Shown: piece by piece, positions 1 to 6,919 of the stretch | How the letters are laid out: every line of letters starts with the position of its first letter | Position numbering within the stretch: the stretch's first letter is position 1 | Origin: Acidobacteriaceae bacterium | Lineage (GTDB): Bacteria; Acidobacteriota; Terriglobia; Terriglobales; SbA1 | DNA: 6,919 nucleotides | Assembly (NCBI GenBank): GCA_019237515.1 | Contig: JAFAGX010000059.1 | Coordinates: 1-6,919, forward strand | Direction of reading: 5' to 3' | Program-made: the position numbers and the translations under genes | The notes under the pieces: model-generated | Seen by the model: the letters and a program-made list of their open reading frames with translations, nothing else | The model's database searches: none | What the model was told of the DNA's origin: nothing

Positions 1-612
1 GAATACCGCTACCCCCAACTTGGCGTCGTCACCGCCAACGAGCTGCACATTCCGGTGAGCGATCCCGCCCATCCGAGGCCGACGTTCCTTCAGTTGCTTT
101 CGGCTGACACCGACTATAGCTTCTGGGTGCCACAGTTGGCCGGCAAGACGGATCTCGTTCCGAATCATCCCAACCGGATGTGGGTGGATCCGGAGCGAGC
201 GGGAGTCTTTTTCGGTCAGTGCGCACAATACTGCGGAACCCAGCACGCCAAGATGCTCCTGCGGGTGTCGGTCGATACTCCGGAAGACTTTGCACAGTGG
301 ATTCGTGGCCAACAACGGCCCGCAGTTGCAGACGAACGAGTTGCCGCCGGGCAACAGGTATTCGAAACCACGGCCTGCATTAATTGTCACTCAATCAGCG
401 GGACTGTAGCGAACGGGCGCTTTGGCCCGGATTTGACGCACTTGATGAGCCGCACCACGATTGCCGCGGGCGCGGCGCTCAACACGCCGGAGAATCTCCG
501 CCTGTGGATCCAGAACCCAGAGGCGATCAAGCAGGGTTCACTCATGCCGGCGATGAAGTTAAGCGATTCGGATTTGGACGCAGTGGTGGGTTATCTCAAG
601 ACGCTTCATTAG
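1..612 (+). CDS. coxB: Cytochrome c oxidase subunit II with fused cytochrome c (caa3 type), 5' truncated
   Basis: This is the C-terminal 203 residues of subunit II; the reading frame is open from base 1, so the start and the N-terminal membrane hairpin lie upstream of the window. The protein receives electrons on the outer face of the membrane and passes them to CoxA. Residues 1-20 hold the start of the cupredoxin domain (EYRYPQLGVVTANELHIPV). SFWVPQLAGKTDLVPN at 40-55 and the CuA loop GQCAQYCGTQHAKM at 72-85 follow, giving Cys74, Cys78, His82 and Met85. The first CuA ligand, normally His just before SFWVP, is Tyr39 (codon TAT, 115-117), and the loop Glu is Gln76. Residues about 105-203 are a cytochrome c domain with CINCH (Cys126, Cys129, His130) and a Met-Pro ligand at Met182. 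The fusion defines a caa3-type oxidase. It is followed 18 bases later by coxA. Identity is very secure; whether CuA is functional is open. Confidence 0.96.
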   Translation, partial: EYRYPQLGVVTANELHIPVSDPAHPRPTFLQLLSADTDYSFWVPQLAGKTDLVPNHPNRMWVDPERAGVFFGQCAQYCGTQHAKMLLRVSVDTPEDFAQWIRGQQRPAVADERVAAGQQVFETTACINCHSISGTVANGRFGPDLTHLMSRTTIAAGAALNTPENLRLWIQNPEAIKQGSLMPAMKLSDSDLDAVVGYLKTLH

Positions 613-2921: not shown

Positions 2922-3788
2922 ATGGGAACCTTATTGACGACGGAGCAATTGACCGAAAACCGCGAGACTCCACGCGAAATCGAAGTACCGGCGCCTACAG
3001 CCTGGCCTTTTATCCTGGCTTTTGGATGCACCCTATTGTTTGCGGGCCTTGTTACCAGCGTTTCTGTGAGTTTGCTTGGCGCTGTGCTGTCGCTCGCAGG
3101 ATCGGTCGGTTGGTTTCGCGAGGTCTTCCCCCACGAGCACGAAGTGACAGTGCCGGTGGTTGCGGAAGAGATTCGCATAACGACCGAGCGGCGCGTAGTC
3201 GAGCAGGTTGCTGTTCCGGCCTACCAGCGCGCGTGGCTCCCGGTTCATACGTATCCAGTTTCGGCGGGCGTGAAAGGTGGACTTGCGGGAGGTGTAGCGA
3301 TGGCGGCTCTGGCCTGTGCATACGGCGTGTTAAAAGCCGGAAGCATCTGGTATCCGATCAATCTCCTCGCCGCTGCTGTCTATGCCGAATCGCTGAAACT
3401 CGGCCCCACGCAGCTTTATTCCTTTCATGCGGACAGTTTCGCGATTGCCCTGGGCCTTCACGCTGTCGTGTCAACTCTGGTGGGACTGCTGTATGGCGCG
3501 ATGCTGCCCATGTTTCCGCGCCGGCCGATTGTCCTTGGAGGACTCATTGCTCCAGTGCTGTGGTCGGGACTCCTTTACACCATTCTCGGGCTGTTGAATC
3601 CATTGCTTGCGAGCCATATTGACTGGCCCTGGTTCACGGCTTCGCAGGCGGCCTTCGGAATCGTGGCCGGGTTCGTGGTCATCCGTCATTCGCCGATGCC
3701 CACGCGCGAGAACCTGTCCTTCGTCATCCGCGCCGGGATCGAGGCTCCGGGAATTACTCCACCGCGAGAAGGGGAGGCGCGGCGATGA
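2922..3788 (+). CDS. Uncharacterised multi-spanning membrane protein in the oxidase operon (possible subunit IV-like N-terminus)
   Basis: I do not recognise a named family for the whole protein. It has 288 residues. A hydrophilic acidic start (1-25) is followed by a two-helix hairpin (about 28-64) ending in GWFREVFPHEHEVTVPV, and then a charged segment (about 80-112). The C-terminal half is hydrophobic, with about four or five helices (116-138, possibly 142-156, 172-196, 203-226 and 240-255). It ends in a polar tail. No heme or copper motif is visible. Isolated histidines (71, 73, 169, 180, 232) could be structural. Position directly after coxC, where small subunit IV genes are often found, and the small hairpin suggest that residues 23-75 may act like a subunit IV, with an extra membrane domain appended; this is inference. 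Its stop overlaps the next ATG (ATGA), so it is probably translationally coupled to the di-heme cytochrome. It could be an accessory or assembly subunit of either complex. Confidence 0.85.
   Translation: MGTLLTTEQLTENRETPREIEVPAPTAWPFILAFGCTLLFAGLVTSVSVSLLGAVLSLAGSVGWFREVFPHEHEVTVPVVAEEIRITTERRVVEQVAVPAYQRAWLPVHTYPVSAGVKGGLAGGVAMAALACAYGVLKAGSIWYPINLLAAAVYAESLKLGPTQLYSFHADSFAIALGLHAVVSTLVGLLYGAMLPMFPRRPIVLGGLIAPVLWSGLLYTILGLLNPLLASHIDWPWFTASQAAFGIVAGFVVIRHSPMPTRENLSFVIRAGIEAPGITPPREGEARR
3769..3777 (+). promoter_or_regulatory. Strong Shine-Dalgarno for the di-heme cytochrome
   Basis: AAGGGGAGG lies seven bases upstream of the ATG at 3785, inside the end of the preceding gene. It supports the overlapping ATGA start and suggests strong independent initiation in addition to coupling. 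Confidence 0.65.
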
Positions 3789-4516
3789 ACCGATTTTTCT
3801 GTCAATGTGCGGCGGGGCTCGTGAGCCTGCTACTCACGGCCTGCAGCTCTCCGCCTGGCCGCCCAAGCAAGGATTCGGAAGACCCGGCTCCGAGCCAGAT
3901 CAGCGACTTCAGTACCCTCTACGCAGAAAACTGCGCAGGTTGCCACGGAGCACGAGGACGCGGCGGAGCAGCCATCGCGCTCGCTGATCCCGTTTATCTC
4001 GCCATCATTGACGAGCCTTCCATGCGGAAAGTCATCGCCAACGGGGTACATGGAACCTCCATGCCGGCCTTCGCTCAAAGCGCGGGAGGAATGCTGACCG
4101 ATAAACAGATTGATGTGATCACTAGAGAAATTCGCTCGCGTTGGAGCCGGACAGGAATTCTCGGTGGGGCCAATACACCTTCCTATGCGGCAAGAAATCC
4201 AGGCAGTGCCGCGAATGGCGAACTCGTTTACGGAACATACTGTGGATCCTGCCACGGCCCAGATGGTCGGGGTGGGCCCAAGGGCAGCGCTATCACCGAC
4301 GATTCGTTCCTGGCTCTTGTCAGCGATCAGGAATTGCGCACGATTGTCATCGCTGGCCGACCGGAACTCGGCGCGCCAGACTGGCGTGGAAACGTGCGTG
4401 GGGAGGCAATGTCGGACCAGGAAATTACCGACGTAGTGGCATGGCTAGCATCGCACCGAGTCCAGACCCCCGGGCAGCCGTATTCCGTCGCGAATAAGCC
4501 CAACACTAAGAGGTAG
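3785..4516 (+). CDS. Di-heme c-type cytochrome lipoprotein
   Basis: Predicted outer-face, lipid-anchored electron carrier of 243 residues. The N-terminus has a positive start, a hydrophobic stretch and a lipobox LLTAC, so Cys20 would be acylated after cleavage. Two cytochrome c domains follow. The first has CAGCH (Cys50, Cys53, His54) and a typical distal ligand Met93 in TSMPAF. The second has CGSCH (Cys153, Cys156, His157), but the position where Met-Pro is expected reads GAPDW (Ala197). Met209 is the nearest later candidate. A linker of about 30 residues (120-145) separates the domains. Lying between the oxidase genes and the Rieske gene, it probably carries electrons between the bc complex and CoxB, functionally like the di-heme subunit of actinobacterial bcc complexes, although that relationship is inference. 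It could alternatively be an accessory oxidase subunit. Identity as a di-heme c cytochrome is firm. Confidence 0.93.
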   Translation: MNRFFCQCAAGLVSLLLTACSSPPGRPSKDSEDPAPSQISDFSTLYAENCAGCHGARGRGGAAIALADPVYLAIIDEPSMRKVIANGVHGTSMPAFAQSAGGMLTDKQIDVITREIRSRWSRTGILGGANTPSYAARNPGSAANGELVYGTYCGSCHGPDGRGGPKGSAITDDSFLALVSDQELRTIVIAGRPELGAPDWRGNVRGEAMSDQEITDVVAWLASHRVQTPGQPYSVANKPNTKR

Positions 4517-4520
4517 AGCA

Positions 4521-5090
4521 ATGGCCACCAAAACCGCACTTGTTCCGTCGACCGGTGCAACGATTTCCCGGCGCGGATTCTTCACGAAGTTGGGAATTCT
4601 GTTCGATGGGTTGGCGGCGGCGGTGGTCGCCGTGCCAATTGTCGGATTCCTGCTCTCGGCAATTACGCGCGGCCGGGGCAATGGATATCTGTCGTGGGTG
4701 CAACTCGGGAAGGTCGCCGATTTCCCGGAAGGCGAAACGCGGCTAGCTACATTCCAAAATCCCTACGTCATGCCGACTGACGGCGCAACCGCCGACACGG
4801 CCTGCTGGGTGCGGCGCATCGCCGGCGACCAATTTCAAGTCTTCCCGGTGAACTGCGCGCACCTGGGCTGCCCCGTTCGCTGGTTTCCACAGTCTGGTTT
4901 ATTCATGTGTCCCTGCCATGGCGGAGCGTACTACCGCGATGGCTCCCGAGCCTCAGGACCGCCCGAGCGCGGGCTTTTCGAATACCCCTACAAGGTGGAG
5001 AACGGCGTGATCACCATTCAAGCCGGTGAGTTGCCGACGCCGGGAGCAGCGATTGCAGCTCTTACCGGGAAGAAGCCACCATGCGCGTGA
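4521..5090 (+). CDS. qcrA: Rieske [2Fe-2S] iron-sulfur protein of a cytochrome bc complex
   Basis: Takes the first electron from quinol at the Qo site of cytochrome b and passes it to a c-type heme. The protein has 189 residues. A twin-arginine sequence SRRGFF at 16-21 precedes a single hydrophobic helix (about 27-48), consistent with a Tat-exported, uncleaved membrane anchor. The cluster-binding fold carries CAHLGC (Cys112 and His114 as ligands, Cys117 in the disulfide) and CPCHGG (Cys130 and His133 as ligands, Cys132 in the disulfide). GPPERGLFEYPYKV at 146-159 resembles the usual Pro-loop of the family. All cluster residues are present. The ATG at 4521 is four bases after the preceding stop, with GAGGT (4510-4514) as a ribosome binding site. 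Its stop overlaps the cytochrome b start by ten bases, so the two partners are likely made together. The symbol follows bacterial qcr naming; petA or petC are used for equivalents. Confidence 0.96.
   Translation: MATKTALVPSTGATISRRGFFTKLGILFDGLAAAVVAVPIVGFLLSAITRGRGNGYLSWVQLGKVADFPEGETRLATFQNPYVMPTDGATADTACWVRRIAGDQFQVFPVNCAHLGCPVRWFPQSGLFMCPCHGGAYYRDGSRASGPPERGLFEYPYKVENGVITIQAGELPTPGAAIAALTGKKPPCA
5067..5075 (+). promoter_or_regulatory. Ribosome binding site for cytochrome b within the Rieske gene
   Basis: GGGAAGAAG sits five bases upstream of the ATG at 5081, inside the last codons of the Rieske gene. It supports the start that overlaps that gene by ten bases. Confidence 0.5.
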
Positions 5091-6553
5091 TCAGCAGAAT
5101 CGGACAATGGTTCGACCAGCGCTTGCAGCTCGCGGCGCCGGTTCGCGAAGCAGCCGAACATCGGATCCCTCGCAAAACTTCCAGCTGGTGGTACGTTTTC
5201 GGCAGTGCCGCCTTGACTGTGTTCGTGCTGCAGATCGTGACGGGAATTCTGCTGGCGCTGGTTTATGTGCCCTCGGGCGCGGAAGCCTGGAGCAGCTTGC
5301 AAGCCCTGAACCACGCTGTGACGCTTGGCTGGTTCATCCGCGCGATGCACGGATGGGGTTCGAACTTCATGGTCGCGATCGTCCTGATCCACATGGTCCA
5401 GGTGTTTCTTTTTGGTGCGTACAAGTTTCCCCGCGAACTTACCTGGATCTTAGGCGTCTTCCTGTTGCTGATGACGCTGGGCATGGCTTTCAGTGGGCAG
5501 GTGCTGCGCTTCGATCAGGATGCCTATTGGGGGCTGGGAATTGGGGCCTCAATCTCGAGCCGCGTTCCCATTCTTGGTCCTGCGATTGTGAAATTGTTGC
5601 TAGGAGGACCAATCATTGCGGGAGCGACTCTGTCACGATTTTTCACTTTGCACGTGTTCGTGATCCCGGGATTGTTGATTGGCTTCGTTGGCCTCCATGT
5701 CTTGATGGTGCTCACGCTGGGCATCAATGAATGGCCGATGCCGGGGCGCATTGTAAAGCGGGCGACATACATCAGCGAGTACCACGAATTAACCAAGAAA
5801 GATGGTGTGCCGTTCTTCTCCTATGGCGCGTGGAAAGATATGTTCTTCGCAGCATTCATCATCCTGGCCGTCGCCGCCTGCGCGCTCTACTTCGGTCCGT
5901 TTGGGCCGACCGGCACCCCCGATCCAACCATCATCCAGACCGTTCCTAAACCGGACTACTTTTTCCTCCGGCTGTATGCTTTGCTGTCGCTGCTCCCGCC
6001 TTCGCTTGAGACCCCGGTACTTCTGATCGGGCCCGTGATGGTGATTGCCGGACTGTTGCTTCTTCCGTTTCTCTCCGGCGAAGGGGAGAAAAGTTGGAAG
6101 CGCCGGCCGATTGCGGTTCTGACCGTGCTACTGATCGCAATCACGCTCGGCACTTTCACCCATCTCGCGGGATACACGCCCTGGAGTCCGCACATGAATG
6201 CGTGGAGCAGCGATCCGGTGCCTGACGACTTCATCCATGGCTCGACCGCGTTAGAGCGGCAAGGCGCTTTGGTGTTCCAGGTCAAGCAGTGCCGTAACTG
6301 TCACTCACTTGGAGAAAGTGGTGGACAGAGAGGGCCGGCTCTTGACCGGGTGGCCGTGCGTCTCACGCAAGACCAGCTTATCCGGCAGGTCATTCAAGGA
6401 GGCGGCAACATGCCGGCTTACGGCAAGAACTTAACTCCCGCGGAAACCACCGCCCTGGTGGCTTTTCTCAAGACTCTGCATCCGAAGGGACAACCTCCAG
6501 CGCGCGATTCTTCCCGCGATATCGCGCTCAAGCAATCTGGATCGCAACCATAG
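5081..6553 (+). CDS. qcrB: Cytochrome b fused to a C-terminal cytochrome c
   Basis: Core of the quinol:cytochrome c oxidoreductase, 490 residues. Helices A-D (about 36-62, 84-110, 121-143 and 187-216) carry the b-heme ligands His90/His104 and His191/His206. The second pair is 15 apart, as in b6-type proteins. Three further helices (about 253-272, 310-330 and 343-362) resemble b6f subunit IV fused in line. The Qo motif is PDYF (291-294) instead of PEWY or PDWY. The Cys that attaches the extra heme in b6 (before the first long helix) is Val39 here. With seven helices the C-terminus should lie on the outer face, where residues about 385-470 form a cytochrome c domain with CRNCH (Cys404, Cys407, His408) and Met444 in GNMPAYG. 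This tethered heme may replace cytochrome c1. It shares ten bases with the Rieske gene and is followed by ctaG. Identity is firm; the symbol is by analogy (petB is also used). Confidence 0.95.
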   Translation: MRVISRIGQWFDQRLQLAAPVREAAEHRIPRKTSSWWYVFGSAALTVFVLQIVTGILLALVYVPSGAEAWSSLQALNHAVTLGWFIRAMHGWGSNFMVAIVLIHMVQVFLFGAYKFPRELTWILGVFLLLMTLGMAFSGQVLRFDQDAYWGLGIGASISSRVPILGPAIVKLLLGGPIIAGATLSRFFTLHVFVIPGLLIGFVGLHVLMVLTLGINEWPMPGRIVKRATYISEYHELTKKDGVPFFSYGAWKDMFFAAFIILAVAACALYFGPFGPTGTPDPTIIQTVPKPDYFFLRLYALLSLLPPSLETPVLLIGPVMVIAGLLLLPFLSGEGEKSWKRRPIAVLTVLLIAITLGTFTHLAGYTPWSPHMNAWSSDPVPDDFIHGSTALERQGALVFQVKQCRNCHSLGESGGQRGPALDRVAVRLTQDQLIRQVIQGGGNMPAYGKNLTPAETTALVAFLKTLHPKGQPPARDSSRDIALKQSGSQP

Positions 6554-6565: not shown

Positions 6566-6919
6566 ATGCCACATCTACATGCCGCTCTAGGATCGTCCCG
6601 ATCAGTGTTTTTCGAACTGATTCTGGTTTTCACAGAGCTGGTTTACCTAAGGGGATGGCTGTCTCTTCGTTCTAGCCTCGTGCATCGAACCTCTGGTTGG
6701 CGCGTCGTCAGTTTTCTGGTTGGACTGTTCTTGATCTGGGCCGCGGTCGCGTCCCCAATCGCTGGGCTTGACCACGAATTACTCACCATCCACATGCTGC
6801 AACATCTGCTGCTCATGACGCTTGCTCCCCCACTGATCTGGCTAGGCGCACCCATCCGTCCACTATTACACGGTTTGCCGCCGCGATTTATAGAGAGTCG
6901 GCTTGCTCCGTTGTGGCAG
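6566..6919 (+). CDS. ctaG: CtaG-type cytochrome c oxidase assembly factor (caa3_CtaG family), 3' truncated
   Basis: The first 118 codons of a membrane protein that runs off the right edge without a stop. Translation gives a short hydrophilic start, a helix region whose first part contains FFELILVFTELVYLRGW (about 15-31), a strong hydrophobic segment around residues 49-65, and the motif HMLQHLLLMTLAPPLIWLGA at about 75-94, followed by PIRPLLHGLP. The HMxQHxxL and APPLxxLG motifs are the hallmark of the caa3-type CtaG family, multi-spanning proteins associated with building the copper centre of caa3 oxidases. They are unrelated in sequence to the Cox11-like CtaG of proteobacteria. Its place at the end of a caa3 operon fits this role. 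The ATG at 6566 is 12 bases after the preceding stop and has a good ribosome binding site. Family assignment is strong; the remainder of the protein cannot be seen. Confidence 0.9.
   Translation, partial: MPHLHAALGSSRSVFFELILVFTELVYLRGWLSLRSSLVHRTSGWRVVSFLVGLFLIWAAVASPIAGLDHELLTIHMLQHLLLMTLAPPLIWLGAPIRPLLHGLPPRFIESRLAPLWQ

Follow-up and report, generated by a model that had tools for sequence, protein, structure and literature searches.

The first gene of the soil acidobacterial stretch analyzed here (6,919 nucleotides, referred to below as the window), coxB, carries a tyrosine codon, TAT, at bases 115-117 of the forward strand, at the position of the distal histidine ligand of the CuA site. 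The encoded residue, Tyr39, is a genuine departure from a histidine column that is otherwise invariant among the sequences compared. Very probably it reflects either a base-call or consensus error close to the end of the contig or a recent point mutation in a single strain, and not a new type of copper site. We rank error as somewhat more likely than recent mutation, and by our judgement it stands a little over one half.

The tyrosine codon and the remaining CuA ligands

Frame 1-612 (+) is open at its 5' end and encodes 203 amino acids of the 3' part of coxB/ctaC, the 5' part of the gene, with the N-terminal transmembrane region of subunit II, lying off the contig. In the fragment a CuA domain is followed by a mono-haem cytochrome c fused at the C-terminus, with Pfam COX2 (PF00116) matching residues 29-88 and Cytochrom_C (PF00034) residues 114-202, both over the cut-off; against the NCBIfam CoxB model the score is 83.1 for a cut-off of 147.7, the query being a partial protein. 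The top sequence match in the PDB is 2yev_B (E 7.5e-43), subunit II of the caa3 oxidase of Thermus thermophilus, an organism of a different phylum from the window's host, which likewise joins a CuA domain to a cytochrome c and can be aligned over residues 2-202 of the fragment. In phmmer comparisons with solved structures Tyr39 is aligned to the His of VIHSFWVP in 2yev_B, where the Thermus protein thus differs from the window's, and to the His of VIHSWTVP in both 1m56_B and 2gsm_B, a position that we take to be that of bovine His161. Where a subunit II of the CuA type has its distal His before S-F-W-V-P, the window's CoxB has Tyr39 instead.

The other CuA side-chain ligands are all present, encoded within bases 220-255 (+): the bridging cysteine pair of the CxxxC motif, Cys74 and Cys78, and, after the second cysteine, the proximal His82 and Met85. 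None of these four columns varies in the 80 genome loci compared (the best 80 of 315) or among the 119 nearest proteins listed besides the window's own. The haem c motif of the fused cytochrome, C126-I-N-C-H130, is found at 376-390 (+) from the sequence and from the ligand columns. An earlier note on this DNA had read Tyr39 as standing in place of the CuA histidine, with both Cys, the second His and the Met kept, and the reading of the codon together with the structure alignments bears this out on every point.

Gene order and type of oxidase

Seven further genes follow on the same strand. They are coxA/ctaD (631-2304), for a haem-copper oxidase subunit I with GHPEVY (PF00115; TIGR02891 over cut-off); coxC/ctaE (2317-2913), for subunit III (PF00510); a gene for a conserved 288-residue protein with no Pfam or NCBIfam match (2922-3788), which occupies the same place in relatives, between coxC and the next gene; a gene for a di-haem cytochrome c with two CxxCH motifs (3785-4516; PF13442 in two stretches); a gene for a Rieske iron-sulphur protein (4521-5090; PF00355); one for cytochrome b with a C-terminal cytochrome c domain (5081-6553; PF00033, PF13442), for which, among cytochrome b models, the N-terminal ones alone match; and the 5' part of ctaG, for a caa3 assembly factor (6566-6919; PF09678), which continues past the end of the contig. 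Ligand columns show that CoxA keeps all of the residues that we take to be its haem and CuB ligands, and it has the Glu of GHPEV, a mark of type A1. Every frame is open and can be aligned along almost all of its length, and the eight genes, the two partial ones included, show no stop codon or frameshift.

Of the first 30 loci, 21 have the full set of eight genes in the window's order, as do 42 of all 80; many of the rest are short contigs. Most of the remaining nine among the first 30 are truncated by contig or locus ends, while L010 is without a ctaG match and L011 has ctaG upstream; in L060, too, the genes that were found depart from the window's order. The locus L001, one of the two nearest relatives for which DNA is available, has the same eight genes in the same order. 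A bc1-A1 caa3 superoperon of consistent synteny is described for Acidobacteria in the part of PMC8407424 available to us, with coxBAC upstream of the Rieske and cytochrome b genes, a fused cytochrome c and the GHPEVY motif. The window resembles it in each of these features, its caa3 genes lying directly upstream of the bc1-type genes and its cytochrome c being fused to subunit II, and is unlike it in having Tyr for one CuA His. Because the gene order is common in relatives and matches the published superoperon, and because the CoxA ligands are kept, the operon running from coxBAC through the Rieske protein and cytochrome b to ctaG is, judged by its sequence, an ordinary acidobacterial arrangement.

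Histidine in the relatives compared

In order to establish how widely the tyrosine is shared we pooled two protein listings, one of 119 other proteins from 8,000 scored on the whole protein and one of 119 others from 1,024 scored in a motif-weighted search, whose words were drawn solely from residues 19-62 so as to favour Tyr-bearing relatives. Together these give 176 distinct proteins, and in all 175 other than the window's own the residue at the Tyr39 column is His. No Tyr was found among the 119 others listed from the 1,024 of the motif-weighted search, in which a less similar Tyr protein could have ranked lower. The 119 closest of the proteins listed are 84-90% identical to the window's CoxB and have all five CuA ligands; the nearest, at 90% identity, carries His, and none was seen above 90%.

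The same result is obtained from genomic DNA. Histidine is encoded in 80 of 80 loci (the best 80 of 315 stretches encoding a relative), in 117 of the 117 loci that can be aligned here out of a set of 122 that includes repeats of the same places and distant paralogs (L092, L094, L100, L113 and L118 do not span the column and were left out), and also in L123, a partial CoxB of 87% identity. Three of the loci, L013, L077 and L079, are labelled Betaproteobacteria or Candidatus Binataceae and encode a CoxB near the acidobacterial type (76, 65 and 64% identity, respectively), a discrepancy that may reflect mis-binning or gene transfer.

Pattern scans of whole genomes were also carried out. The pattern D-Y-[S/T/R/C/W]-F-W-[V/I/M]-P has no match in 396 Acidobacteriota genomes, and with His in place of Tyr it matches in 16 of the 396, some of which may not be CoxB. 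For the order, 298 genomes were scanned with a pattern covering both the Tyr and the His codons, and 172 of them have matches. Among the matches listed, the places read were the seven of the form YSFW[V/I/M]P, with Ser after the Tyr, and none of the seven frames has the CuA GQC motif within the sequence retrieved around it. Viral contigs searched with the exact flanks gave no match and, among the open-licence papers listed on an altered CuA His, no title or abstract opening concerned Tyr at this position.

A clade sharing the tyrosine was to have been the sign of a true CuA variant, according to the earlier note, and searches of homologs, loci and patterns found none; histidine in all close homologs was to have spoken against it, and this is what every relative examined has. 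The note's lead reading, a CuA centre altered as a biological variant so as to change the entry of electrons, is therefore unsupported. Its alternative, an error or a strain variant, is upheld, Tyr being private to the window among the relatives examined. The codon is very probably a private change, confined to this one sequence, in a caa3 oxidase subunit II that is in other respects ordinary for Acidobacteria.

Origin of the codon and its possible consequences

In favour of an error, base 115 lies 115 nucleotides from the end of the 6,919-base contig, which is the sole contig listed for this protein. Of the 83 nucleotide changes private to the window, 8 fall within the first 300 bases, the highest count of any 300-base bin and too few to weigh, in weak agreement with a poorer contig end. 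These 83 changes compare with 80 on the L001 branch (seven genes, with seven outgroup loci), and a contig-wide excess of errors was rejected on the basis of these similar totals.

How unusual is a private change at such a site? At 83 near-invariant columns the 176 sequences have 19 private changes, the window's included, from which approximately 1.1 hits on the five columns of CuA side-chain ligands are expected, on the assumption that ligand columns are no more constrained than other conserved columns; a background of this size counts towards an error. Apart from the window's own there are 18 such changes, most of them milder exchanges and none on a CuA side-chain ligand, and 17 of the 176 sequences, counting the window's, have at least one such change. 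In a ranking of 55 by private changes at near-invariant columns the window comes 7th, with 8.2 per 1,000 where the median is 2.7, which is raised and not extreme. Its coxB product has 5 residues absent from the 119 closest proteins listed, where the others average 1.2 and at least 5 are found in 5 of 120, the window included. Also in favour of an error, the contig has another radical private change of a single base, in cytochrome b at residue 297, where the window has CGG (Arg) at 5969-5971 and the alignment has Trp in 47 of 48 rows and Phe in one.

The codon itself bears on the route by which TAT arose. Among the 80 loci (best 80 of 315) the histidine is encoded by CAC in 69 and by CAT in 11, and CAC is used in both L001 and L123, the two nearest relatives with DNA. 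Because of this preponderance of CAC a one-base origin, which requires a CAT ancestor, is not the default. Of the 32 positions where L001 has CAC and the histidine is kept in the window, 7 are CAT in the latter. On the evidence of these codons, CAC in the nearest relatives mildly favours a real, older two-step change, TAT being reached somewhat more easily by such a route than by one error.

The foremost alternative to an error, which we regard as possible though less probable than an error, is that the change is real: a recent loss-of-function mutation in one strain, with CuA unassembled, this copy of the caa3 oxidase dead or nearly so, and other oxidases serving as backup. Support for such backup comes from the genomes of four relatives, in each of which the CuA part of CoxB has 2 to 6 matching places, and from the available portion of PMC8407424, where caa3 oxidases number more than one in four of the five acidobacterial strains. 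Private amino-acid changes are also more numerous in the window than in L001 (43 versus 28 over seven genes; 26 versus 8 in coxBAC), a surplus compatible with random errors, with mild relaxation or with a longer branch. Against a decaying copy, many of these exchanges are conservative, with the exceptions of W297R, P247S and E464K in cytochrome b and A109P and E184K in the Rieske protein, and the eight genes, as described above, are free of visible stop codons and frameshifts.

If the change is real, with Tyr in place of His one of the CuA coppers would lose its nitrogen ligand and keep two Cys and the Met. Most likely CuA would then be poorly assembled or not assembled at all and this copy of the oxidase impaired, with electrons leaving through other oxidases, relatives commonly having more than one. 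Loss of the distal His may impair assembly or shift the potential. In the OUT form of that enzyme's CuA the corresponding ligand, H579, rotates off one copper and the site, though distorted, persists; the residue there is His, unlike that in the window's CoxB, and OUT is one of two conformations (PMC11573801, from the part accessible to us). We infer impairment or a shifted potential because the His-off form needs a Ser that, according to the same part of that paper, is conserved in N2O reductases and not in oxidases.

A tyrosine that is functional and fixed in a lineage, giving a Cys2-His-Met site with a phenolate or an open position, a shifted potential and supply of electrons by the fused cytochrome c, appears very unlikely. 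The persistence of the N2O reductase site with its distal His off the copper lends the idea some plausibility, as does a remaining operon that is intact and in its usual order, and a lineage-specific substitution could postdate the split from the nearest relatives, none having been seen above 90% identity. The want of the Ser in oxidases argues against it, however, and no second case was found in the 175 listed proteins, the 80 loci or the scanned genomes. Finally, a subunit II of quinol-oxidase type, or a paralog, that never had CuA can be dismissed. Quinol oxidase subunit II proteins, which would speak for it, appear as distant matches; against it, the protein keeps the fused haem c and four of the five side-chain ligands, the closest listed proteins have the full ligand set and the gene lies within a caa3 operon.

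Should the tyrosine prove both real and functional, the strain would be a natural mutant at a metal site that is among the most highly conserved in respiration, and a Tyr fixed in a working caa3 oxidase would show that the CuA His ligand is not strictly necessary. With an error or a recent point mutation as the preferred reading, the case counsels caution: a single altered residue near the end of one contig does not amount to new cofactor chemistry when the relatives examined all retain the ancestral residue.
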